This document shows positions 3,081 through 23,749 of a stretch of DNA of 23,749 nt, one piece after another. This DNA comes from Monosiga brevicollis MX1 (lineage: Eukaryota; Opisthokonta; Choanoflagellata; Craspedida; Salpingoecidae): positions 6,173-29,921 of the forward strand of contig NW_001865057.1 of the NCBI RefSeq assembly GCF_000002865.3. Direction: 5' to 3'. Below the pieces are notes generated by a model, which ran no database searches, was not told the DNA's origin, and saw nothing but the letters and a program-made list of their open reading frames with translations. The number at the start of each line of letters is the position of its first letter. Within the stretch, counting starts at the first letter, position 1. A program made the position numbers and the translations under genes.

Positions 3081-6000
3081 TTACTTCTTTTCCTCATGAA
3101 GCAAATACAAGCGTTGGGTCACGCTGACAAAGGTGCCCAGACCAGGGGTAACAGTTTTGTGTGTCTCAGCTTGCAGGGCCCCTTGTGCCTCAAGGCAGAA
3201 CTGATATACCTGTTCCATCGTCAAACGCAGTTCCGGACGCTCAAATCCCCGCAGTCGTGGGAAGCGCTCGCTCGATTCCCTGCCCCACGCAGCGTACGAC
3301 AAACATGAGGGCGACTTAAAGTGCGAAAAAGGGGCAACGGTTTAAAAAACAAAAAACAAACAAACAAAAGAGGTGGTCCCCTTGCCCAAACCTCCAGTTT
3401 AACAATTCACAGGGTGGCGTACCGTGTGCAAGGCCGACAACCCGGGGCCTCGTCATCCCGGCTAGCACAGCATGTCCAGGCTCCCGCATACAGGCCTGGG
3501 TGATACGTGGGGCTAAGCCCCATGTTGTTCTCGCAGTAGCGGCGCAAGGACAAAATCCATTCTGTGCGATCCACCGCGTTTTCGGCCGCCAGGTACAGAG
3601 GTTGTTGCTTGGCCAGCAGCACCTGAAAAGCAAACTATACAGATTGATGCCCATGCAGCACGTTGTATCAGTCAAGCGACCACCGTCTTTTTGTTCTTTC
3701 TTTGCGTCCATGACTAGACATGGCATACCTCGCCCAAAGCGTCTTCCTGGGCCAGCTCGACGCCAATAATGTCTTGAGGCGTAAATTTGCCCAGAGCCGG
3801 GCCACCTGCAGCGGATATGACAAGGACGGAAGCCGTTCAGATGCAGCACGGCCGAAATTGAGCTGGGAAGCGCCTGGATACTCATATCTCACCTTTATCC
3901 TTGTGATAAGATAGCCCTTCATTGCTGAGGATGACAAAGCGTCGCTTGAGGTTTTTGAGACCGCTCACGTTCATGCCCATGACGCTCTTCTTTCGACCAA
4001 GGCCTCGCTTGGTCAAGAAACTAGGTGGCATGTACGCACGATCAGAAAAAACCGCCCCAGCATTTCAAACATCAACCGACCCGTAAGCATACCCTTCTTT
4101 AATGACAGCCAGAAGGCTGCCGGCAGGCCGATATGCTGAGCTGAGTCGACGCGTTGCACTCTCCTGTGACAAAGACAAGGAATAGAAGAAGAAGAAGAAG
4201 AAGAAGAAGATAAAAAAAAAAAACAAAAAAAAAAAACAAAAAAAAAAAAACGTGAAACAACTGCAGAGTACGATGGAACGCTTTGGCCGCACGGCGGTCG
4301 CGGGGAGCAGGCCAATCGTACATGGTCCTTCAATGAGGACAATTTGTCTAGGAAAAAGCGAACCCGGCCACTCTGGCGCTCATGCACGTTCTTCAAAATG
4401 TCTTTCATAAAAGCCTCTTTCAGGTTGCTAATTGCAGGCAAGGCAGAGACACCTCGTTGAATAAAAAGAAAGGGCTGGGGATTGGGCGGCCCTTTGAAAG
4501 CGGGCATGCAAGTGCCGTACCTTTCGGTGCCAAGATTTCCCAGGCTTTGAACCAGCTTGGAAATCAGGGTGAGAGTGCGCTTGACGGCCGGCGTTGGAAT
4601 GACTTGGCAGAGGTCAAACGACTGCGGATTCTGCTCTCAGACATGTCGATGCATGCAGGTGGAATGCAATGACGCGGGAGCAACGGCGGACAATGGGGTG
4701 ACACCACGGTTAGAACGCATTTGCATTGCTCTCAGCGCGCCACAAAGAAATCTCTCGGACAACATGCTGGCTCATACGAGAATGGCGGCCGCAAAAAACC
4801 GAAGAAAGATAAAGCCGCTCACAGCCCGCAACGGTGTGGTGGAATCCTCTATCGAGATGGTAATTTGATCGGTGAACGGCAAAAATAACACAACAACGCA
4901 AAGCTCAAAAGACAGTGAAGTATTTCGGCATCGCCTTGTTGGCTGGGATGACACACCTGGAAATCTTTGGCGGGCTTTTGTTGCTATGGCCGTCATGATC
5001 ACTTTGATGTCATCGGTGACCATAGAGGTAGATGATACCATGTCGATCAAGGCCTGTTCAACCTGTTCGAACGTGTGATAGAGCAGGGGTCAGCGGCGCC
5101 AAGGGCTTAGGCCAAACGCAGAGCATCGGTGGCCAAATCTAGACAAGCAAGGATACATTTCATGCGTACGAGCTGCTTGAGTTGAAACTGGTTCTGCTCC
5201 AAGACGGCGGGTGAGCTCACAAGGTCAGGGTTGATCTCCAAAGCCACCTGTAACAAAAGGCCATACGATACAGACGATAAGACGGTCGGATCGAATGACG
5301 CAAATGTGTCAGGCCTATGGCCACCATACAAAATCCGCAGAGACTAACCTCATGAGTAAGGACTTCGTTGAGGACTTGACTGAGGGTGTACCACAACATG
5401 TTGCTGCCGTTCATGCGCAAATATTGTTCGACCACTTTGGTAGCCAAGGTGTTGCCACGGAATAGCGTGGGCGCGCTCGAACATTGATCGATGTCGTGTT
5501 GCGCCACCTTGATCGCAAACTCTATATCACGATCTATGGGCGAGTCCAGCAGGCAAATTTGAACAAGATGTTTTCACTCAGCGGTGCTTGCTGGGCTCGA
5601 TTATCACAGGGTCGCCCTACCAAGATGCTGGTATGCCAAGAGGAGGGTGCGAGCCAGCTTTTCCAAATTTTTAACCCGTTGGGCCAACTGCAGCACATCA
5701 TACGACCGGAGAGGTGAGAGTTTGTGCGGTCAAATCCAAGGCAGCAAGCGCCCCGTTTTGAAAGATACCTCTAGAATCGGCGACTCATGAAAGGGTTCAT
5801 ACTCCAAAGCTTCACGCAAAAATGTTTGCAAGCATCTGGTGAGAAGAGATGGAGACGATGATGTAAACAAGCAACATTGTCGTTAGCCCTTGCACGTCAT
5901 GTGCAGAATGTGGGAGCGTCTTTTTGACGAAGGAAGAAAAAAAAGATAAACCAAGAAACAAGGGAAAAAAAAAAGAGAAGAGAAGAGAAGAGAAGAGAAG

Positions 6001-9006: not shown

Positions 9007-12000
9007 CTAAAAGCGCGGAAACCAGCCGCCGCCACGTTCGGCCTGGGGAGCGTCGACAGTTTGCAACTGCTGAAGCTCATTTAGCTCTTCGGGGGTAAAG
9101 TGTAGGAGCATCGAGAGCACAGGGACCAGCTGGGGCCGCTCATCGCGTTTTTGCAAAAACTGTAGGATAACATTCTTCAAGTACTCTATGTTGAGCTCAC
9201 CTCGCGTCTCACTGCGCTCATTTCGACGCAGCTCGTCTTTCAGCAACTATGGTTTTGACGCAGCGCACGTGAGAAGAGGGCTGCAAGTGGTGCAACAGGC
9301 GGACTTTCAGATTTGAGAGAGCAGAGCAGAGCACACCTTGAGTTGCTCCGTCAGTCGATCCACATTCACCTCGCTCTCGTTGAGCAGAGAAGTCAGGTGA
9401 CCGACCTATTTGGCGTGCAGGCACCATTAGCAGGGTCGAGGACAGGGCTGCTTACGAGCCCAAGTTTAGACCGCATGTCTCACCTGCTGCTGGGATTTGG
9501 TAAATGCGCGGGCGAGCTGCTCCGGCGTTAGACCAGACAGGTTGATTGCAGCATCTACATCCAGCCATGACCAAAAATCGGATTTCATCATTGGCAAGTC
9601 GAGTTGAAAGCTTGTGAAAATGCGGTCAGAAAAAGTCACCTCTTGCAAGCGCACCAACTAACCGGACACTTCCGATGGTGATCGGTTGGCAATTAAGCCA
9701 GCCAGGTCTAAGCCACTGCTATCTGATGCTGACGGGCTGGCATGTTCACGCTCAACCTCTTGGAGAAGATGCTGTGTTTGAAAGGATTGCGAAGCAGTTT
9801 GCCGATGATCACCGGCGCCACTGTATTGTGACGATGAGCGCCGATGCCCGCGTTCTCGATGCGAGTCAGCCACCTGATCCTGTGCTTCGTGCAGTTGGGC
9901 GCTGAAGCCCCGGCAAAAACCATGCAGTGCCAAAAATGAGCCACAATCATGATAAAGGCAAGGGAGAGAGAGAAGAAGAAGAAGAAGAAGAAGAAGAAGA
10001 AGAAGAAGAAGAAGAAGAAGAAGAAGAAGAAGAAGAAGAAGAAGAAGAAGAAGAAGAAGAAGAAGAAGAAGAAGAAGAAGAAGAAGAAGAAGAAGAAGAA
10101 GAAGAAGAAGAAGAAGAAGAAGAAGAAGAAGAAGAAGAAGAAGAAGAAGAAGAAGAAGAAGAAGAAGAAGAAGAAGAAGAAGAAGAAGAAGAAGGCATCG
10201 ACCCAAGGGTAGATCTCTTAAGAGGATAAGGACAGGAGCTCAATCCACCCAAACAGCAAAATATAAACAGATGCAAATGCTCGAGGTTGATTGCGCACAA
10301 ACCGTAGCACAGTGATTTGGTCATCTTTTTCGGCGTTGGCCAGCTCGAGCTCTTCAAGGCGTGCGGCGCTCTTGGCCTTGACTTCATCTACGATGCGTTG
10401 GCTGTCCGCTTGGACACGAGCCAGCAAGTCTTCCGTGTCATGGTGTGTTGTATCTAAGACCTCGCGCAGGCGCTTCAGCTACCCAAGTCAAAAAAGGGAT
10501 GGCGTGATGTGAGTATTAAGTAAGACCGGCAAAGGAATCCGCTAGTCATGGCATCTCAGAAAGGCACGATAAGTTGAAAACTCAATGCAGTACCTCTTCC
10601 TCACTCTGCTGAGCCTGCTCAGTGTATTGCTGTTTGGCGCGGAGAAATTCACCCTCCAAACGATTGGCATGCTCTATTTTATCGTGATCAATGCCTCGTG
10701 TCAGTGTTTTCACAATTCATGGGCAATGCATTTATACGCACAAAACCAAAAGAGGAAAACAAGAACAAAAACACAAAGGTCCCCGCCGTGAATTGCACGC
10801 GAGTCCAGGTTTTGACGAAGGGAGCTGTCGTACCTTCAAGCTCACGATACGCTGTTTGTGAATCGGCCACGACGGCCTCGCGCTGCGCCAGCTCGTCCTG
10901 GAGCCCTTTAATCTATGGCATGCCACGTGGCTAAGCAGGAGGAAACGCTTGCAAGCAGCAAGGGCGTACATTCAGGCGCCTCACCCTCTGCTTGGCGGCC
11001 TCAAGCTTCTCCCGGATACCCTGCAGCTCCTGGTGCTGTCGTTCTTGGCTGAGCACTGACTGTGCTCGGACCTAGGTGCGCATTCAGTCGACACATACTC
11101 GTTAAATCCCATTGCAGGCGACATCTGCTGGTATCACATCGCGGTTTCGGCTAGATGCAAGTTGGGACTGGCCGGTTGAATCCGGCTCACCTTGTACTTG
11201 TGAAACTCAGCGTTGGTCGACTGCAGATTTGCTTGAGATGTCTGCAGTTCACGTTGCAAGGTGCTCAGCTGGAATCGCAGGTCGCGCTTTTCAACGTCGT
11301 GCGTCATCTCGCTTTCACGATTCAAGGCCTCCAGGTTGGTGACGTGCTGATTCAAGCTATCCAGCTCTTGTGAAACTGTCTGCATTTGCTCCTCTTTGTC
11401 TGCAATCTAACAGTCACGCACAGGCAAATGAAACAAAAAACAAACATTGTCAGTAAGGTGGCCTTTTAAATCACGTCTGCCAAGGCCCCGTGAGATCAGG
11501 CTATTGCGCGCGTGTAGATGCGAGAGATATTCTGAAGCAAGTGGGCGTGCCAAGGACCACGACGACAACACACCTCGTCTCGTGCTGCGGCAAGCTCGCG
11601 ATCCTTCTGCTCGAGCTGGTTTTTATGTTCTTGGAGCTCATTCTTGACCTTAAGGAGAAGGGAGCGAAGCTTACCAATCTGCTCAGTGGCCTTTGACTTG
11701 GCGGTCTCTCCTGCGGGTTGAAGACGAACATGGACCATAGAGGCGCACGAACAGCATGATCTTGCGACGCGGCCAATGACACACACGCTTCATCTTAAAA
11801 AACCAAGAACCCAAAACGGACAGGCACAAAAAAGTATACATGCAGACACAACGAACGGCGTGGGGAGCGCACCGGTGGTCAGATTGGACCGCAGGTCCTT
11901 GACTTGGGCCTCCAATTCATTGGCACGCGCTTTGACACTGGTCATCTCAGCTTTGAGATCTTCGTTGAGGGTATGCAGCTTGTCCACCGTACGTTTGTAG

Positions 12001-14623
12001 TCGGCAATCTCCAGGTCAAGCATGGTGGATTGGGACAAATCGGCGGTGGCTTCGGATAGGCGGGCCTGAGCAGCACCATGCGCCTCCTTTTCCGCTTGCA
12101 GCTCAGCCTCAAGTCGGGTGATGGTCAGTTGCTGTTGCTCCACGCGATGTTGTAGCGCCTTCAAGTCAGCAAAGAGCTGGGTGTTGCGGTCCTCGAGGGT
12201 TTGCTGAGTTGTTGTGTAGCGTAGTTCCAACGCCTCAACCTCCTCTGCATGTCTACTTTCCAAGAGGTCTCGCTCCTGCGTCAGGCTTGTCTGCGCAGCC
12301 GCGAGTTGGGCCTGCACACCTTCAAGGCTAGTTTCAAGATCAGCAACACGGGCACGCGCCGCTGCTAGCGCCTCAGCCTCTGTGGCTGCACTTTGCTCAC
12401 CAACAGCCTGGCTGGCGCGTGCCGTCTCCAATTCACTCTGCACCTGGGCTAAAGCTGCTTGTGTTTCATCGTTCGCTTTCTCCAGCAGAGCCATGTCGGC
12501 GCGTAATTCGTGCTCGCGTTGCTCACCGAGAGCCAGTTGCTCCTGCAACGAGGTGTGCGCCGCTTGAAGACGGGCCATCTCTACAGCATGGGTTGCCGCG
12601 GCATCTTCATCGGTGGGTGAGCCCGCAGCTGTAGTCGCCTCAGGCCGACTGTGGGTGTTGCTAAGGGTCGAGATTTGTGACTCAAGGTCTGCACGCTGTG
12701 CAGCCCACTGATCACGTTCCAGCAGCAGCGCGTTGAGCTGCGTCTGCACTTGCTCCATCTCTTCCTGAGCAGCTTGGTCGCTAATATTATTTTCGGGCGT
12801 CGCTTGCTGCTCCAACTCGGCCTGTGCCGCACGATAGCGGTTCTCTAGTTCCTCATGCGCGGCTTGCAGGCTATCAAAGCGGGTCTGCAGTGCGTCTAGC
12901 TCAAACTGGGCAGTTGTTACTCGCGTTGACTCTTCTGCTTCTGCTTCTGCTGTCTGATCCTGCACCGTCTCCAGGTGTGCTAGACGGGCCTGTAGACCAG
13001 AATACTCAGCCTGCAATACCTCAAATTCAGTCTGACGTTCTTGGGTGGCAGCTTCAGCGGTGGCCAGAGCGCGCACGTGCTGTTCTTGCGCCGTCGACAG
13101 CTGAGTTTGTAGGCTTGCAATCTGGCTTTCTTGCTCTTGCTGTGCGGCCTAGTGGAAACACAAGCGTGCGTTGACATAAGTGGAGCACCACGGCTGCCTC
13201 TCGGAAGCTGGTTTAGGCGAAAAACCTTTTTTTTTTTTTTTTTTTTTTTTACGTTGACACAAACCTGAAAATCTGCCGCCTGTTGCTGCAGCTGGGTCTC
13301 AAGGACTTCAATCTTAGCTTGCAGCGCCTGAACGTCCGGTCTCGTTTCGTTCTCATCTTCTGTGGCATGACTGTGACGCAATTCATCGAGTTCGGAGACT
13401 AGAGATACTCGTAAGTCGCGCTCGGCCTGCAGCTGTTGCTGGTGACTGGTCAGTTCGCTGATAACATCGGCCTTTTCCTCTTGAGCGCGCGAAAGCAGAG
13501 CCAGCGTCTGATGTCATCCAGAGATGCAGGGGCAGGAATAGGGATGATGAGAGTAAGATTCCCTCGGAGATGAGATGTGAGCCAAGCCAAGAACGAGCCT
13601 TGCTCTCTACCTGGGCATTGTTCTCTTCCAATTCCGTGACCTAAGCGATGGGTGGGTGGCCACATGCAGGAGTAGATGACAATGCAATCAGCGAAAAGCA
13701 GCAAATCCATCCGGCATGCAAGCTTTCCAAGTGCCCTTGCCATTCGTTGAGGACAGGGGCCATGGCGTCTCCAACATACCCGTGCTTCGGCTTCCTTGCT
13801 CTTTTTTTGTAGCGCAGCAGCAAGGCGCTTCATCTTCTGCAGCTGCAGCAGCGTCTCGTCTGCGGCTGGAGAGGCCGGGGTGGTTTCACCTCCACCGCTG
13901 GCCTTGAGCTGTTCTAATTCGATTCGTGTGGCTGATTCATGCCCAAGACATGCCAATGCCACAGGGGTGCGGGAACGGGAAGAAGCAGCGAATGAACTCG
14001 ATTCCGCACGCCTTTGGTCACCAATGTGACTTGATGATTATGGCGCAGAGGTGAAGCATACCTTCATAGCGTTCCTTCACACGCTTGAGGAGGGTGAGCT
14101 GTTTCTCACTGTGCTGAATAAGATCCTCCTTGCTCATAGCAGCCAGCTTGCTGCGCGCCCCGCTGGCCGCGGTCGGGGTTGCACCCGCCTCAGGGGCGTC
14201 GGGGGTTGCCATCTCTGTTGGGACGGCTTGCCACTCGTCCCAAGCGTCTGAATCACTGGATGCCCGAGAAGTACGCCGAGCCGTGCGCCGAGGGGAGCGC
14301 CGGGCCGTGCGCGAGCTCGAGCTGGAATCAGTTGCAGCGGTTTCCGCGGAATGGCCAGGAGCCAAGAAGGGAACCCAGTTTGGGTTGGCTTGGCCGTGAG
14401 CCTCTGACAAATTGAGATTGGGCTCAGTGGCAGCAGCGGTATCTCGTTTCTAACGGCAAAAAGGAGCCGAATCGCGCGATTAAAGCTGCCACGTCGAGCT
14501 GGACCGCACCTTGGCGCGAGGGTTGTCCGAGCCTGCTTTGACACAGACCTGAGGGGCTCGTTGCACGGCCTGATCAAGTTCCGCTTCCAACTGTGCAAAG
14601 GAATCACTCAAAGCCCTGAACAT
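9007..14623 (-). CDS. GCC2: GRIP-domain golgin, GCC2/GCC185-like, 1198 aa, 16 exons
   Basis: Exons: 14623-14510, 14449-14062, 13931-13780, 13640-13611, 13507-13265, 13148-11873, 11710-11574, 11406-11191, 11071-10985, 10912-10834, 10673-10594, 10478-10303, 9901-9663, 9554-9484, 9405-9337, 9246-9007 (stop TAG). All phases agree, total 3597 nt. The N-terminus has a Ser/Arg-rich region, then SKEDLIQHSEKQLTLLKRVK (about residues 141-160), resembling the start of GCC2. Almost all of residues 170-1120 is heptad-rich coiled coil. Two further segments look like the conserved C-terminal part of GCC2: KLRSLLLKVKNELQEHK (exon 7) and FHKYKVRAQSVLSQE (exons 8-9). The GRIP domain is at about 1137-1175, NIEYLKNVILQFLQKRDE, with the Arl1-binding Tyr at about 1141. 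Such golgins sit on the trans-Golgi through Arl1/Rab GTPases and tether endosome-derived vesicles. GCC1/GCC88 or golgin-97 are alternatives, but length and internal blocks favour GCC2. Confidence 0.9.
9971..10194. repeat. Pure GAA/AAG trinucleotide tract, about 74 units, in golgin intron 12
   Basis: An uninterrupted AAG/GAA repeat of about 224 bp, preceded by GAGAGAGAG. It lies inside the intron between exon 12 (ends 10303) and exon 13 (starts 9901). On the golgin sense strand it is (CTT)n. Long poly-Lys, poly-Glu, poly-Ser and poly-Leu reading frames across it are artefacts of the repeat. Such a length should be unstable and polymorphic; in an assembly the unit count may be approximate. Confidence 0.97.
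13227..13250. repeat. T24 homopolymer in golgin intron 5
   Basis: Twenty-four consecutive T on the + strand, within the intron 13264-13149. On the golgin sense strand it is an A-run near the donor side, so unlike the other intronic tracts it cannot serve as a polypyrimidine tract. Confidence 0.95.
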
Positions 14624-15337: not shown

Positions 15338-16120
15338 ATGTCGATGAGCACGGGACTCAAGCTTGTAGGTGGCCTCGGCCTGGCAGCTGGCCTCGCCTAC
15401 TGCGTCTATTTTGACTACAAGCGCACCCATGCTCCGGATTATCAGGAGAAGATTCGCAAGCGTAAGTGATCGGCTGCAAGCATGAAACCAGGCTCATTAC
15501 GACAGATAATGCCAGTGGGATCTGGCTAGGCTGCATCGCCTTTTTCTCCTGTTGATCTCCCTCCTTCGCGTATGGTGAAACAAATTTGCACCGCACCAGC
15601 TCACTATTGGCGCTTTAATATTTGCTCCTTCTCCCTGCAAATTCGAACGTTTCACTTCACCATTATCAGGTCGTGAGGAGCAAAATGCCAAGGTCAGCCT
15701 TCCCACCCCATCCCGATTGCTTATTGCACTGGTTTGAATGCTCTCTTGACGGTTTGTCTCATTCATGTTTGGCAAGTAGAAGCAGTCTACGATTGACCCC
15801 AATCAACTGCAGGCCATCTTCAACAAGTGCATCGAGCAGGGCCAGGCTCTTGTTGCTAGTACGTCAAAATTTGCGATACCCCGTCTAGCTTGTGTCGCTT
15901 GCATTGTCGGAGCCGTCCGTATTCGCCGGGCTCACTTCTGGGTTGCCTTCTTGCCCCTTTTCGGTTCTTAGCCCAACCACAGCTGGCCGCGCGGCACTTT
16001 GCCAACGCTGTCCGCATCAGCCAGAACCCTAGCAACCTGATTCAGATTCTCAAGCGCCAGCTGCCGCCCCAGGTCTTCCTCATGATTATGCAGGATCTGC
16101 AGGCCAACGCAACCGAGTAA
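15338..16120 (+). CDS. TOMM20: TOM20, mitochondrial import receptor subunit, 124 aa, 4 exons
   Basis: Exons 15338-15461, 15670-15692, 15780-15858 and 15972-16120 (stop TAA), phases 1, 0, 1, all consistent. The N-terminus has one hydrophobic signal-anchor helix (LVGGLGLAAGLAYCVYFDYKR), with the YCVYFDYKR junction matching the YCIYFDRKR of metazoan TOM20. A basic linker IRKRREEQNAKK follows. Then come a TPR-like helix pair (GQALVATQPQLAARHFANAVR, broken over two exons) and LKRQLPPQVFLMIM, matching the LPPPVFQMLL segment of the animal receptor. TOM20 is anchored in the outer mitochondrial membrane and binds amphipathic presequences for the TOM complex. It is about 20 residues shorter than the human protein, with a reduced linker and no acidic tail. 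The 23-nt exon 2 is unusually small. The start is the first ATG after a pyrimidine-rich leader; a second ATG two codons later would also work. Confidence 0.93.
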
Positions 16121-16843: not shown

Positions 16844-19800
16844 CTACTTTTTCACCGGCTCTCGCGCCAGTTCCTGGGGCGGGCCCCGAGTGGGAACCGC
16901 TGCTTGGCCCGCCGTCGCATCGCTCGGCACGGCAGGGTCTGTGGTTGTTGAGGCACCCGCTGGCGTGTGGCCGGTCAAGTGATGAAGGACTGGCAAGGAC
17001 TGGGTTTGACTGACTGGAATGGTTGGCGGCGCCACCTGATTGGGTGCGCCCGCCTCAGCCGTCACAGTTGTAGCCAAGGATGACTTCGGTCGCACCTCTG
17101 GCGCGACATCCGAGCGTGGCGTGGCAAAAGCCGACAGGCGGCCAGCAGCCCGCTCTGAGGGGCTGGGTGAGGTGGGTCGGGTGCGTACAGTAGCAGATGT
17201 AGTTGTTGTTCCCTTGCCATCTTCCGTTGGTTGAGGTCTGGGCATCTGTGAATAGCCCATCACGTCCGAGGGCCCCTCAATGATAGCACCGCGCTGGCGT
17301 GGACGCCAATAGGTAATCTCGAGATCATTGCATGAAGACACAATCTCGCGAATCAGCATGTGCTTGCGCGGTACGTGTTCACCGTTCTGGAAGTTGGTCG
17401 TCTGTGCCACAATAAAGCCCACCTACACAAGATACATATCCACACCAATGCGCAGAGGGGAAAGAATAAGAAAAGGGAAGAAAGAGAGAAGAAAGAAATG
17501 GAAACCTATTTTTGTGTGTCCTTGCTCGGCGGATGTGGATGGTCCTGGGACGAGACAGGGTTCAGCGGAGATTGCCCCATTATACCTTGAGCGCGTTGCC
17601 GTCTCCCACATCAATGTCTCGGACAAAGAACGAGGATGCCGTCTCGTCGAAATCAGCAGATTTAGTGCGCAGGAAAGCTCGGTAGCGCTTTTCAAGCTCC
17701 TCCAACTTCCACCATGGCGTATCCACGGACACTATGCGATGTTGCCAGAATCAGTGTTAGAACAGATGGCTCTGTGCCGACTGCGAGGGCTCGGTCGCGG
17801 CTGACTCTTGGTGAGTCTCTGCAAAGAAGGAGATGCGCAACCAACCTTGAATAAAGGTAGCTTCAGTCATGGGGCCAGCACGACGAATGTTCGTCAACTC
17901 CTTGGGATATAGGGAATGGTTGGCAATGGTCACCACGCGGCCTGATTACGGACGGAACCATGCAGAGCATGAGTTTGATGCATCCCGTTTTGTGGCAGCA
18001 GTGGAGCTCAGGCAAAGGTAGAATCTGTAGTATGGCCACTCACCGTCCCAAACACGGAACACAGTCTGCGAGAGACTCATGCTAATCACATACATGGGAT
18101 CCCATCCCGGCACATGGCTGTTGACGCAAGCGACCGAAAAAAAAAAATGAAAAAAAAAAAAAAAAATTAGAAAGAAAGAAAGAAAGAGTGAGCAGTTGGT
18201 ACTCGCTGCAAGCACGACCATCGAAGACAAATGCCTCGACTGTATGTAAAACGCACACTCGATCGCCAATATCAAATGGGTGCATGACCTGCACAACAAG
18301 TGACGGCAGCGTGAGAATGAGCTGGGTTGCAAAAGCTCGGCTAGGGAGGGGTGGTGGAGTGATGGAGCACGCAACGTACAAAGAGGAAAATGAACGAGTT
18401 GAAGAGCTAAAAGACACGGCCAGAGCAAGCCAGGAGCGGTCGTGAGACTTCAGAGCGCGCTCCGAGAAAAAGGGCAAGCAAGATGGGTCAAGGCGATGGA
18501 TGCGCACGTTTTTGGCCGATTCGGCAAAGATGAAGGACAGCGCAAAGAGCGTTGTGCCAACCGTTACCGTGACCTCCGCATAGTCACCCGTGGAGAAGAC
18601 AATGTTCACCAGGAAAAGGGTGATGATGATGACCGCCGCTGTCAAGAAGGAGCCCAACGCCTGCACGCTCGTTCAAAAGGCAGTGCAGTGCCCAAGGTGA
18701 AGTTGCATCGAGATGTGTTCGCATCAATGGTCCCAAGAGCAGAGGCCGATGAGGCATGGTCTCTGTTTGTCTGTGTCTGGCAACGTCCAACATGCAAGCC
18801 TTCATGCAAGCTATTGCAACATGCACCGCACCAAAAACGCACCTGCACGATCGAGTCTAGATCCTTGAGGCTGAGCGCCAGATGTTTACGCTTGTGATAC
18901 ACGCGGCTCATGGCTTCTTCCAGATCGCTAAGTGCGAGATTCTGCTTATCGTGTGGGTCAAACATCTCAAGGATGCGCCGACGCATATCTGGCGAGCTGA
19001 CGTAGGGCGAAGCCAGGGCTGTGATGGCTACATGATCGCCGACTTCATGACGATAAAAAAGCGCCTCGGCTGTTTTCATGGCCAGCTAGACAAGCATTAA
19101 AAAAAAAGGAAAAAAAAAAAAAAAGGAAAAAAAAAAGAAAAAAGAAAAACAAAAAAAAAAAAAAAACCCCTCCCATGAGAGAAGGTGCATGGGACCCACA
19201 CACACCAACACACGTTGAATTACAATAAGATGGGCGCTCTGCCCGGCCCTCTTTCGACAGTTAGGCCAGCAGGGTATGCTGGGTGAGTTGCAAGAGTGTC
19301 GAAGAATATACCTTGCGATTCTTGATGGCCAAGCGACCGTGGCAGGTCGTGAGATAGGTATAGCGCACTGTTTCAAACCCCACCAACATGGCTGCGGTCA
19401 TCTCGCTATCATTGGCTTCAATCAGGTCTTGGATAGCCTTGTCCGCCTGCCAAGCCACGACACGCAAAAATGATGGTGATGGGATCAAGGATGAGAAAAA
19501 CAAGAACTAGGCAAGCCGGGCAGGTTGTGGGGTTGCTACGACAAGATACCTCGCCCTTGACACGATGGGCATTGCTTTTGGAGACGCGCGATTTGTGTCG
19601 ATTGATGCGGCGAGAGGGATTTGAAGCGCGTTCATTTGAATCCGACATGTGAGGCTCCTCCTGACTTCGAGTGTCACTCTTGTTGCGCTTATGCTTGGTC
19701 TTGTGCCTTTTCCGCTTGGCCTTGTGCTTATGGCTGCTTTCCGACACCTCGGTCGACTCCTCGTTGCGTGAGGTGACCGAGTCAAGGTAGCCGCCGTCGT

Positions 19801-21085
19801 CATCGCGCAGATTGACGGGGGCGGGTCGTTCGATAACGGAAGTAGTCCGGCGCGAGCTAGCGCGTCGCACGGGGGTCGGCCCCTTCTCACCAGCTGTGTC
19901 CACTGCTGTCTCCTTGAGGAGTTCTTTGGGTGTACGGGCGGGACTCTGATCTCGAGCGGGTTTCGAGGTTGGGACTGGGGCTGGGACCGGGGTGGCTTCA
20001 GGGGTGTTCCCGGACTGAATGGTGCTGAGGGGTGCTGCTGCTTGAGCGGATGTGCGTCGTCCTCCCCAGCCCCGGCTCTGGCCGAGGGAGGTAGAGTTGT
20101 TGACGCTGGCATCGGTTGTTTCAGGCTTGCGTTTCTTGCGGCGGAGAAAGCCTCGAAACATGCCCTGGAGCTTGATGGCGGCATCGTATTCGGTAATGGC
20201 AGGCTGCTCTGTCAGCTTGGGACGGGGCTGTGGATCAAAAATCTCTGCCATTTGCATGTCCTCAGTCAAATGCTCCAATACTTCCTGTTCTTCTAGAACC
20301 TGCTGGACTTGGTGCGCGTACTGCAGCATGCGGTTCTGCAAGAGGTCACATCATGGAGCAGAGTGAAGAAGAACGACGCAAACAAAGCAAAAGGCGCGGG
20401 TGTTGGACTCAACGTTGCGGCGCGCTTTCACCCAAAAGGGTGCAACGTACACCGAAGCGCAGGCGAACGAGGGCCATGGCACGTAGAATCCTAAGCGGGG
20501 AAAAAGGAATAAGCTAGGAGTCGGGATGTTGCGAGGGGACGGGCGGCATTTTCAAAGAATCGGGGGTCGAAACCCAAGAGGAGCGTACAGAAGAATGGCG
20601 AGGAAGATGTTCACAATGAAGAGGCGAGGGATCCAAAAGGTTGCATCTCGGTCAAGGGTGCGCTCGGAGCCATCGCTACGGCGGGCGGGAAAGGGATTGA
20701 CGCCAAAGACGGCTTCAAACACAATGATGACAAGAACACTCCAGATGAAATAGGCAATGCTGGTGTAGAGGGCAGTGAAGACAAGGCGGCGCCGTTGAGA
20801 CTTGTCGAGTTTGATGGCAATGGTGATTGTGAACCAGACCACGGCACAGACGCCCATCCAAAGGCCAATGGCTGCGACGATAAAGATGCCCCAGGCAGGA
20901 ACGCTGGCATTGGCGATGAGAGTGCCTGGCCAGATGATGCGAGCGAGAACTGAGATACCGGCTATCACAATGGCCACCGTGAACCAGCCGAGCCAGTGGC
21001 GTCTGTTCCAGCTCCGCCATGCCGTCTGTTCAATGGGCACCAGCAGCGAGTCACGGTCGATGCCCGTTGACTTTTTGGGATCCAT
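16844..21085 (-). CDS. MscS/MSL-family mechanosensitive channel with IQ motif, 955 aa, 11 exons
   Basis: Exons: 21085-20589, 20490-20451, 20335-19550, 19446-19312, 19085-18843, 18660-18508, 18321-18203, 18117-18044, 17941-17846, 17731-17586, 17422-16844 (stop TAG); all phases agree, total 2868 nt. Start MDPKKSTGIDRD; the frame is open upstream but has no earlier ATG. Four hydrophobic helices lie in residues 27-175. A long cytoplasmic loop (180-441) carries an IQ motif, AAIKLQGMFRGFLRRK (L235, Q236, R240, G241, R245), then a Ser/Pro- and Lys/His/Arg-rich disordered stretch. A degenerate EF-hand-like segment (FDPHDKQNLALSDLEEA, 528-544) precedes two more helices (about 568-612). The MscS core follows: VMHPFDIGDRV (630-640), SLSQTVFRVWDGRVV and NHSLYPKELTNI, matching eukaryotic MSL/Msy channels, whose pore opens under membrane tension. 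The last exon is a Pro/Thr-rich tail. The fit is closest to fungal Msy1/Msy2 and plant MSL10-type proteins; the calmodulin link is inferred from the motif. Confidence 0.9.
17457..17506. repeat. Purine-rich (GAAA/GGAA) tract in MscS-like intron 10
   Basis: Imperfect AAAG/GAAA repeats between exons 10 and 11 of the channel gene. On the sense strand it is pyrimidine-rich and lies about 35-80 nt before the acceptor at 17423. Confidence 0.8.
18137..18187. repeat. A-run plus (GAAA)n tract in MscS-like intron 7
   Basis: A11 and A16 runs followed by AAAG repeats, inside the 84-bp intron between 18203 and 18117. On the sense strand the T runs fill most of the intron and form its polypyrimidine tract. 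Confidence 0.9.
19098..19166. repeat. A-rich homopolymer block in MscS-like intron 4
   Basis: Several A runs separated by GG, G or C, just upstream (sense strand) of the exon 5 acceptor at 19086. On the sense strand it is a T-rich tract ending about 10 nt before the AG. Confidence 0.9.

Positions 21086-21743: not shown

Positions 21744-21814
<71 letters not shown>
21744..21814. repeat. (CA)n dinucleotide microsatellite, about 35 units
   Basis: Uninterrupted CA repeat of about 71 bp in the divergent spacer between the MscS-like and HIBADH genes. It should be polymorphic and can adopt Z-DNA. Confidence 0.97.

Positions 21815-21816
<2 letters not shown>

Positions 21817-22266: not shown

Positions 22267-22314
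<48 letters not shown>
22267..22314. repeat. (TG)n dinucleotide microsatellite, 24 units
   Basis: Uninterrupted TG repeat of about 48 bp, 50 bp upstream of the HIBADH start codon and followed by TTTTCCAACCAG. It is the reverse complement of the (CA)n tract 450 bp to its left. Confidence 0.97.
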
Positions 22315-22319
<5 letters not shown>

Positions 22320-22364: not shown

Positions 22365-23658
22365 ATGATGATGATGGCGACGACAGGGACGCTGCGGCGA
22401 TTGGCCGCCGTGGGCACGCGCCGGGACCTCAGTACCAGCTTGGCGGCGGCTGCGCGCGTTGGTTTTATTGGCCTTGGTCAAATGGGCAACCGTATGGCGA
22501 AGAACGTCGCCAAGGCCGGACACGATCTCGTCTTGTACGACGTGAATCGCCAGTCCGTTGACGAGGTGGCAGCCACGTCGGCCAAGGTGAGTTAATCGTG
22601 GTCTCAATTGGGCCATTCAAGCTTGTACCTGTGGTCTTGTACCAGTAGCTATGTATGAGCCACATGATTTCCGCTCACGAGCCTCTAACGTCAATGTGTC
22701 CAGGCTCGCGCTGCCGACTCGGTCGCCGAGGTCGCTGCAGGTGCCGAGGTGGTCATTACCATGTTGCCGGAAGGGTACGCGGCCAGACGCTTTCTGAATG
22801 GCGTGGTGCTCGTGATTATCATTCGTCCTTGTCGCGAGCATGACTCACGTTGTCGCCGGCTTTGCCGCCCCTTTGCTTGGCACTTTGTTCTGCGCGTGCA
22901 CGCATGCTCGCGTGCAACAGCTCGCACGTTCGGGGCGTGTATCAGGGCGACCAGGGCCTTTTTGCGGCGGCCTCGCCCGATACACTTTTCATTGATGGTT
23001 CCACCATTGATGTGGCCACGGCCACCCTGCTGGCTCACGAGGCTGAAGAGAGTGGCCATGCCATGCTGGACGCCCCCGTATCTGGCGGTTCGTAGATGGA
23101 GTGCCCTCCCTGGCTTGGCTCGTACCCCTTTCTTCGTCAAGCGCAGCATGGTTTCACTTGACCGAATCGGATCGATGCGTGGCAGGTGTCGGAGGCGCTG
23201 AAGCTGGCACTCTGACCTTTATGGTCGGCGGCACGCCGGCCGCCTTTGATCGTGCGGCCCCCGTTCTCGCCTCAATGGGCAAGAATGTCGTGCACTGCGG
23301 TGCCAACGGAACGGGGCAGGTCGGTCCCCCCCTACGTCCCCTTCTTGTCTGCTAGAGCACATGGCGGGGAGAATGGGCTGCTTCTCACTCTGGTTCAATC
23401 CGCCACAATAATCCTTCATGTCAGGTTGCCAAGATGTGCAACAACATGCTTCTGGCCATTGGCATGCTCGGCACCTGCGAGGCTATGGCCTTGGGTCAGC
23501 GCATGGGCATGGACCCAAAAGTTTTGGCCGGTATCATCAACACCTCCACCGGCCGCTGCTGGTCCAGTGACACCTACAACCCAAGCCCCGGTGTAATTGA
23601 TGGCGTGCCCTCCTCACGCAACTACGAGGGTGGCTTTGCCACCGAGCTTATGGCCAAG
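22365..23658 (+). CDS. HIBADH: 3-hydroxyisobutyrate dehydrogenase, mitochondrial, 3'-truncated (5 exons visible)
   Basis: Exons 22365-22586, 22704-22774, 22921-23087, 23186-23319 and 23425-23658 (phases 0, 2, 1, 0, 0) give 276 residues; the rest lies beyond the window, whose last 91 bases look like an intron. The N-terminus (four Met, then Arg/Ser/Ala-rich) fits a mitochondrial presequence. [16 protein letters not shown] at 32-47 is the NAD-binding Rossmann GxGxxG motif. [30 protein letters not shown] and GQVAKMCNN follow, the last with catalytic Lys about 201 and Asn 205 of the KxxxN motif. [14 protein letters not shown] is the HIBADH-specific signature. The enzyme oxidises 3-hydroxyisobutyrate to methylmalonate semialdehyde with NAD+ in valine breakdown. 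Introns 4 and 5 use GTC donors (GTCGGT, GTCCTT). The start is the first of four consecutive ATG codons; any of them could be used. Confidence 0.93.
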
Positions 23659-23749
23659 GTCCTTGCGCACGGCACACCCCATTGCTGCCACATTCATGCG
23701 TTTTTGAGGAGCAATTCGCACAACTTGGGCATTTCGCACCCCTTTCCTT

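Follow-up and report, generated by a model that had tools for sequence, protein, structure and literature searches.

Among channels in the PDB, the plant proteins Flycatcher1 (FLYC1) and MSL10 are the closest matches to the predicted MscS-type mechanosensitive channel described here, which is encoded in a 23,749-nucleotide stretch of the choanoflagellate Monosiga brevicollis MX1 (the window; C38:6173-29921 of the 39.5 Mb, 57-contig genome) and carries a candidate calmodulin-binding IQ motif in the linker between its fourth and fifth transmembrane helices (TM4 and TM5). According to the text of PMC8844309, the TM4-TM5 linker of FLYC1 takes up and down positions that are coupled to how the membrane helices move; the R334E substitution, which breaks a contact with D598, makes deactivation ~40-fold slower. 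A similar linker domain, in the down position, is described for AtMSL10 (text of PMC10560256). The main texts of these two papers contain no occurrence of calmodulin and none of EF-hand. For Crm1 of C. neoformans, part of PMC6904872 describes a prediction of six helices, with an EF-hand that lies upstream of its channel domain. Three MscS homologues have been reported from M. brevicollis, and choanoflagellates keep MscS genes that animals may have lost (passages in PMC3681921); the main text of that paper likewise holds no occurrence of EF-hand or calmodulin. No MscS channel with an IQ motif is described in the titles and opening lines of abstracts among the literature matches listed, subscription papers being outside this scope.

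Channel gene, linker and IQ motif

The exon joins of the 935-residue channel model are our choice, made from the sequence alone, with GT-AG introns of 91-226 bases. The residue numbering of the first-pass annotation agrees with ours up to the IQ motif; it gave a total length of 955 residues. After the pore helix, the MscS beta-domain is matched by Pfam MS_channel_2nd (PF00924; residues 615-683, 38.6 bits against a cut-off of 20.2, expectation value (E) 1.1e-9). At E<=10, 22 PDB sequences match the channel: FLYC1 and MSL10 take the top five places (E 3.6e-25 to 5.4e-24), below them come 14 entries that bear the name of an MscS, small-conductance or YnaI channel (E 8e-5 to 0.11), and three unrelated ones close the list (E 1.2). 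Hydrophobic 19-mers lie at residues 33-51, 67-85, 110-128, 156-174, 571-589 and 595-613, and the predicted layout is one of six helices, with almost 400 residues separating the fourth from the fifth.

The motif, AIKLQGMFRGFLRRKK, was annotated at first pass as beginning at residue 232, in exon 20335-19550, and as lying in the loop that connects the N-terminal helices to the pore domain; both placements hold. The consensus of IQ motifs is [ILV]Qxxx[RK]Gxxx[RK], which LQGMFRGFLRR (residues 235-245) fits. This short pattern is weaker evidence than a full matrix, because its strict form, [ILVFM]Q...[RK]G...[RK], is contained in 63 of 20,000 shuffled loops and 133 of 20,000 shuffled whole proteins. 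A 21-column matrix was built on 31 further IQ sites in the genome (34 that we chose from the 43 best of 90, less two miscut and one duplicate). On this matrix the linker unit YDAAIKLQGMFRGFLRRKKRK scores 28.1. Shuffling the 262-residue loop 5000 times never gives that value (mean -6.0, highest 12.8), and in a leave-one-out comparison 10 of the 31 sites used for the matrix fall below it. When the whole genome is scanned in six frames with the Pfam IQ profile, the site obtains 19.5 bits (E 0.058), under the cut-off, and ranks 63rd (tied with the 64th) among 90 matches at E<=10; 59 of the 90 are over the cut-off, 8 of them only together with neighbours. Of 14 prokaryote genomes scanned in the same way as controls, one gave matches and none gave matches over the cut-off. 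A 31-residue peptide around the motif finds six PDB sequences at E<=10, all IQ-type, with weak E of 0.22-1.6: the sperm protein Sp17 (twice), radial spoke protein 23, a neuromodulin IQ fused to calmodulin, and myosin-5A (twice). The assignment as IQ-type was made from alignments for the first four and by name for the two myosin-5A entries. The sequence thus confirms that this MscS channel has what looks like a genuine IQ motif, known from one genome.

Exon 3, which holds the motif, has an open frame with phase 0 at both ends (acceptor CTCTTGCAG, donor GTATCTTG). Codon log-odds trained on 894 codons, from the C50 paralog described below and a calmodulin gene, amount to +0.505 bit per codon in the frame used and are negative in the other five frames. 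The signal is highest in codons 220-259, which include the motif: this block, the top of seven in the exon, reaches +0.85, against -0.57 and -0.36 for the remaining forward frames. The measure is imperfect, with values of +0.17 in intron 6 and +0.03 in intron 9 (one frame each) and just +0.08 in exon 12. The encoded loop is basic, with 48 lysine and arginine against 34 aspartate and glutamate in 262 residues. Exon 3 alone was also modelled with AlphaFold as a single sequence and with no relatives, giving a poor model overall (mean predicted local distance difference test (pLDDT) 56.2, predicted template modelling score 0.18) in which pLDDT is <50 for 139 of the 262 residues. Just two helices appear in it, residues 181-212 and residues 228-247, the second covering the IQ motif with block means of pLDDT of 57 at its start and then 88 and 84. 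The model thus gives the IQ segment an isolated predicted helix, which lies 15 residues beyond the helical extension of TM4 and is followed by a long, mostly low-confidence tail.

Paralogs and the EF-hand-like loop

A protein search of the genome (E<=0.01) finds at least two further MscS loci, at C50:249415-251929 as modelled and on C52 near 717526-719417, and the three loci agree with the count given in the parts of PMC3681921 referred to above. Identity to the C38 channel per matched stretch is 29-34% for C50 and 27-31% for C52, and paralog identity in aligned parts is 23-32%. Both paralogs resemble the C38 channel in having an EF-like segment in the same place, but differ in being without a clear IQ, and Pfam IQ finds no match in the first exon of the C50 gene or in the C50 and C52 segments scanned. 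On sequence criteria, a clear IQ is present in one of the three paralogs found. A segment of C50 containing LQ was considered as a counterpart of the C38 IQ and rejected (334 of 5000 shuffles score as well, not significant); the two do not fall under one another when the three paralogs are aligned with MAFFT, so that the likeness comes from the matrix scan alone. Elsewhere on C50, an IQ match of 20.6 bits at 255557-255616 on the minus strand lies ~3.6 kb past the modelled end of the MscS gene and on the other strand from it; it probably belongs to a separate gene. Viral contigs gave no pattern match when searched with the protein itself. With alignment A1, they gave 156 pattern matches and no relatives, and prokaryote contigs one relative among 128 pattern matches. 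The latter is a bacterial contig that matches query residues 159-201, in the pore part, and is not informative on the IQ.

The segment equivalent to the EF-hand of fungal relatives had been called degenerate, and it is: the loop DPHDKQNLALSD at residues 529-540 is non-canonical, and a Pfam EF-hand scan of the segment gives no match. None of the loops of the three paralogs is canonical (DPHDKQNLALSD, DPNDVGSLDRQW and DPSKTGKLTREQ). The least decayed is that of C52, with G at position 6 and S and T at positions 3 and 5, but Q at position 12, and its segment has a weak Pfam EF-hand match (12.7 bits against a cut-off of 25). The stretch of FLYC1 aligned there, FEVNEKGQISLKAF, is non-canonical by our reading. 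In all three paralogs the loop stays recognisable in front of the pore, and a conserved SLxDLDS segment follows it.

Calmodulin as a candidate linker subunit

Two open reading frames on C31, on the same strand and ~3.7 kb apart, code for an identical calmodulin of 149 residues and are likely a tandem duplicate; the first matches PDB calmodulins end to end. The genome has 62 matches to EF-hand pairs, calmodulin among them. Direct support extends to the gene for the channel, to its third exon and the motif there, to the prediction of that motif as an isolated helix, and to the presence of calmodulin genes in this genome. We propose, with a probability of roughly 0.6, that this is a six-helix MscS-type channel in which an IQ helix (residues 228-249) of the cytosolic TM4-TM5 linker docks calmodulin or a calmodulin-like light chain. 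Calmodulin occupies many IQ motifs at resting calcium, and it would probably sit on the linker already under these conditions, ~15 residues past the helical extension of TM4. Once the channel has opened under tension and calcium in the cytosol has risen, the bound calmodulin may rearrange and pull on the TM4 extension, such that the speed of opening or closing would change. The likeliest effect would be calcium feedback on channel closure, since the FLYC1 linker, at the same position of the layout, swings during gating. Control by calmodulin at this place is plausible by the same analogy, because the FLYC1 linker moves with gating in the account of PMC8844309. An arginine of the channel, R177, was placed over R334 of FLYC1 in a phmmer side-alignment (-3.5 bits), which is not relied on. 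The sequence hints at calcium tuning of a stretch-gated pore through the IQ helix. More tentatively, calmodulin could be a standing subunit on the MscS TM4-TM5 linker, with calcium feedback, and the weak AA-x-[RK]-LQ trace in the top-scoring window of the C50 loop the decayed remnant of a docking site older than the paralogs.

A number of results weigh against docking at the IQ helix. Over the whole protein, the Pfam IQ profile (PF00612) gives 13.5 bits (E 0.066) against a cut-off of 20.3 that is intended for whole-protein scores. The score rises to 18.3 in a 90-residue segment and 21.0 in a 30-residue segment, so the curated cut-off is reached by the short segment only. The best loop windows of the paralogs score 1.1 in C50 (EHAAARLQSKLREIMDARRAI; 334 of 5000 shuffles do as well) and -6.6 in C52 (2066 of 5000). 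A TM1-TM4 profile of the three paralogs finds no match in the PDB at E<=10, FLYC1 and MSL10 included, and the FLYC1 linker mechanism is therefore transferred by layout only. One reading of such results is that a fast-evolving, basic and disordered loop has come to resemble an IQ motif recently or by chance, and that the segment binds nothing particular. The charge of the loop, the share of residues with pLDDT <50, the sub-threshold whole-protein score, the occurrence of the strict pattern in shuffled loops and the failure of paralogs at 23-32% identity to keep a clear IQ all agree with it. We nevertheless consider chance unlikely, though by no means negligible, as the full 21-residue profile fits where none of the shuffles does, the genome-wide E is 0.058, a helix is predicted exactly over the motif, and the coding signal peaks there. 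The gene model could also be wrong, with the IQ stretch intronic or spliced out. There are 50 in-frame GT-AG pairs that could excise part of the motif, four of which use a listed donor (in all four GTACGC at exon offset 14), and the coding measure has the exceptions noted above. This is highly improbable in view of the continuous open frame, the contrast of the IQ stretch with the other forward frames, and the C50 paralog, in which the matching loop and TM1-TM4 lie in one open frame.

What the helix binds is a separate matter. Basic amphipathic helices near membranes are often lipid-binding, and the helix might engage a calmodulin-like light chain, centrin or, through its basic face, acidic lipids rather than calmodulin itself. 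The many EF-hand pairs of the genome, calmodulin included, and the RRKKRK in which the IQ segment terminates speak for such partners, but the fit to the IQ profile exceeds what basic charge alone would give, and residues 230-247 have only a modest hydrophobic moment (0.39, outside the eight highest windows listed, at 0.57-0.64), which makes this quite unlikely. The first-pass annotation had gone further and suggested that calcium sensing moved from an ancestral EF-hand of the channel to calmodulin bound at the IQ. A fungal relative, Crm1, with its EF-hand upstream of the channel domain (part of PMC6904872) and the coexistence of a degenerate loop with an IQ in the C38 channel would suit this proposal. 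It is, however, very doubtful, and it was not borne out here: none of the three paralogs found has a canonical loop, two of them have no clear IQ, and the aligned FLYC1 segment is, by our reading, not canonical either. Present evidence thus gives no link between losing the EF-hand and having the IQ.

Gene surroundings and comparison with known systems

Features of the channel gene (positions in the window; residues of the 935-residue model)
Feature	Position	Strand	Basis
MscS-type channel gene, 12 exons, 935 residues	16844..21085	-	GT-AG introns, phases close, open frame to stop
Channel gene exons 1-6	21085-20589, 20490-20451, 20335-19550, 19446-19312, 19085-18843, 18660-18508	-	
Channel gene exons 7-12	18406-18380, 18288-18257, 18117-18044, 17941-17846, 17731-17586, 17422-16844	-	
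Exon 1, TM1 to most of TM4	20589..21085	-	hydrophobic 19-mers, the last crossing into exon 2
Exon 3, residues 180-441: end of predicted TM4 helix extension, predicted IQ helix, long basic, mostly low-confidence loop (TM4-TM5 linker)	19550..20335	-	coding log-odds, AlphaFold single sequence
Predicted helical cytosolic extension of TM4, residues 181-212 (exon 3 model 2-33)	20237..20332	-	block mean pLDDT 93, 93, 83, end 57
IQ motif, part matched by Pfam (residues 230-247); the 21-residue unit YDAAIKLQGMFRGFLRRKKRK as a whole spans residues 229-249	20132..20185	-	Pfam, matrix, AlphaFold helix
Degenerate EF-hand-like loop DPHDKQNLALSD, residues 529-540, directly before pore helices	18924..18959	-	H, K, Q at loop positions 3, 5, 6
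Exon 6, pore helices (TM5-TM6)	18508..18660	-	hydrophobic 19-mers; aligned to FLYC1 and MSL10

On the plus strand, head to head with the channel gene, lies a gene for a 3-hydroxyisobutyrate-type dehydrogenase (~22365-23748) that runs past the end of the window; a 45-residue piece matches NAD_binding_2, and 23356-23748 matches NAD_binding_11. Tail to tail with the channel gene, an open frame at 15860-16117 (plus strand) matches the MAS20/Tom20 mitochondrial import receptor (37.2 bits against a cut-off of 27). Further away, both on the minus strand, are an open frame with a RasGAP match (5220-5573; 28.9 against 28.3) and a 452-residue coiled-coil-like frame (11793-13148), whose matches to ATG16, MAD and Lebercilin are weak and under their cut-offs. 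A long (GAA)n/(TTC)n-like tract at ~9960-10210 yields poly-E, poly-K and poly-R frames, and long CA/TG tracts occur near 21745-21815 and 22268-22315.

Voltage-gated sodium and calcium channels recruit calmodulin through a C-terminal IQ. The C38 channel is like them in having a cytosolic IQ, but belongs to an unrelated pore family, and its IQ is not C-terminal. Msy1 and Msy2 of S. pombe carry EF-hands; these channels and Crm1 are likened to the C38 channel by description, not by sequence alignment. The EF-like segment stands at the place of the EF-hand of Crm1, but the loop is degenerate, and an IQ helix lies upstream of it. The combination of tension sensing with calmodulin feedback is best known from unrelated channels; if calmodulin does sit on the linker that moves in gating, a single family would join the two, and with calmodulin as a standing subunit, calcium feedback on mechanical gating could be present in those unicellular organisms that are most closely related to animals. 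The nearest comparison is with FLYC1 and MSL10, which share the pore and beta-domain with the C38 channel (aligned at residues 524-782 for FLYC1, E 3.6e-25, and 541-782 for MSL10, E 1.6e-24), as well as the six helices and long TM4-TM5 linker described in the texts of PMC8844309 and PMC10560256. The C38 channel is unlike both in having an IQ helix in that linker and in its TM1-TM4, which are not alike in sequence. If calmodulin docks there, the idea from FLYC1 that the linker controls gating would gain a natural calcium switch as a test case.

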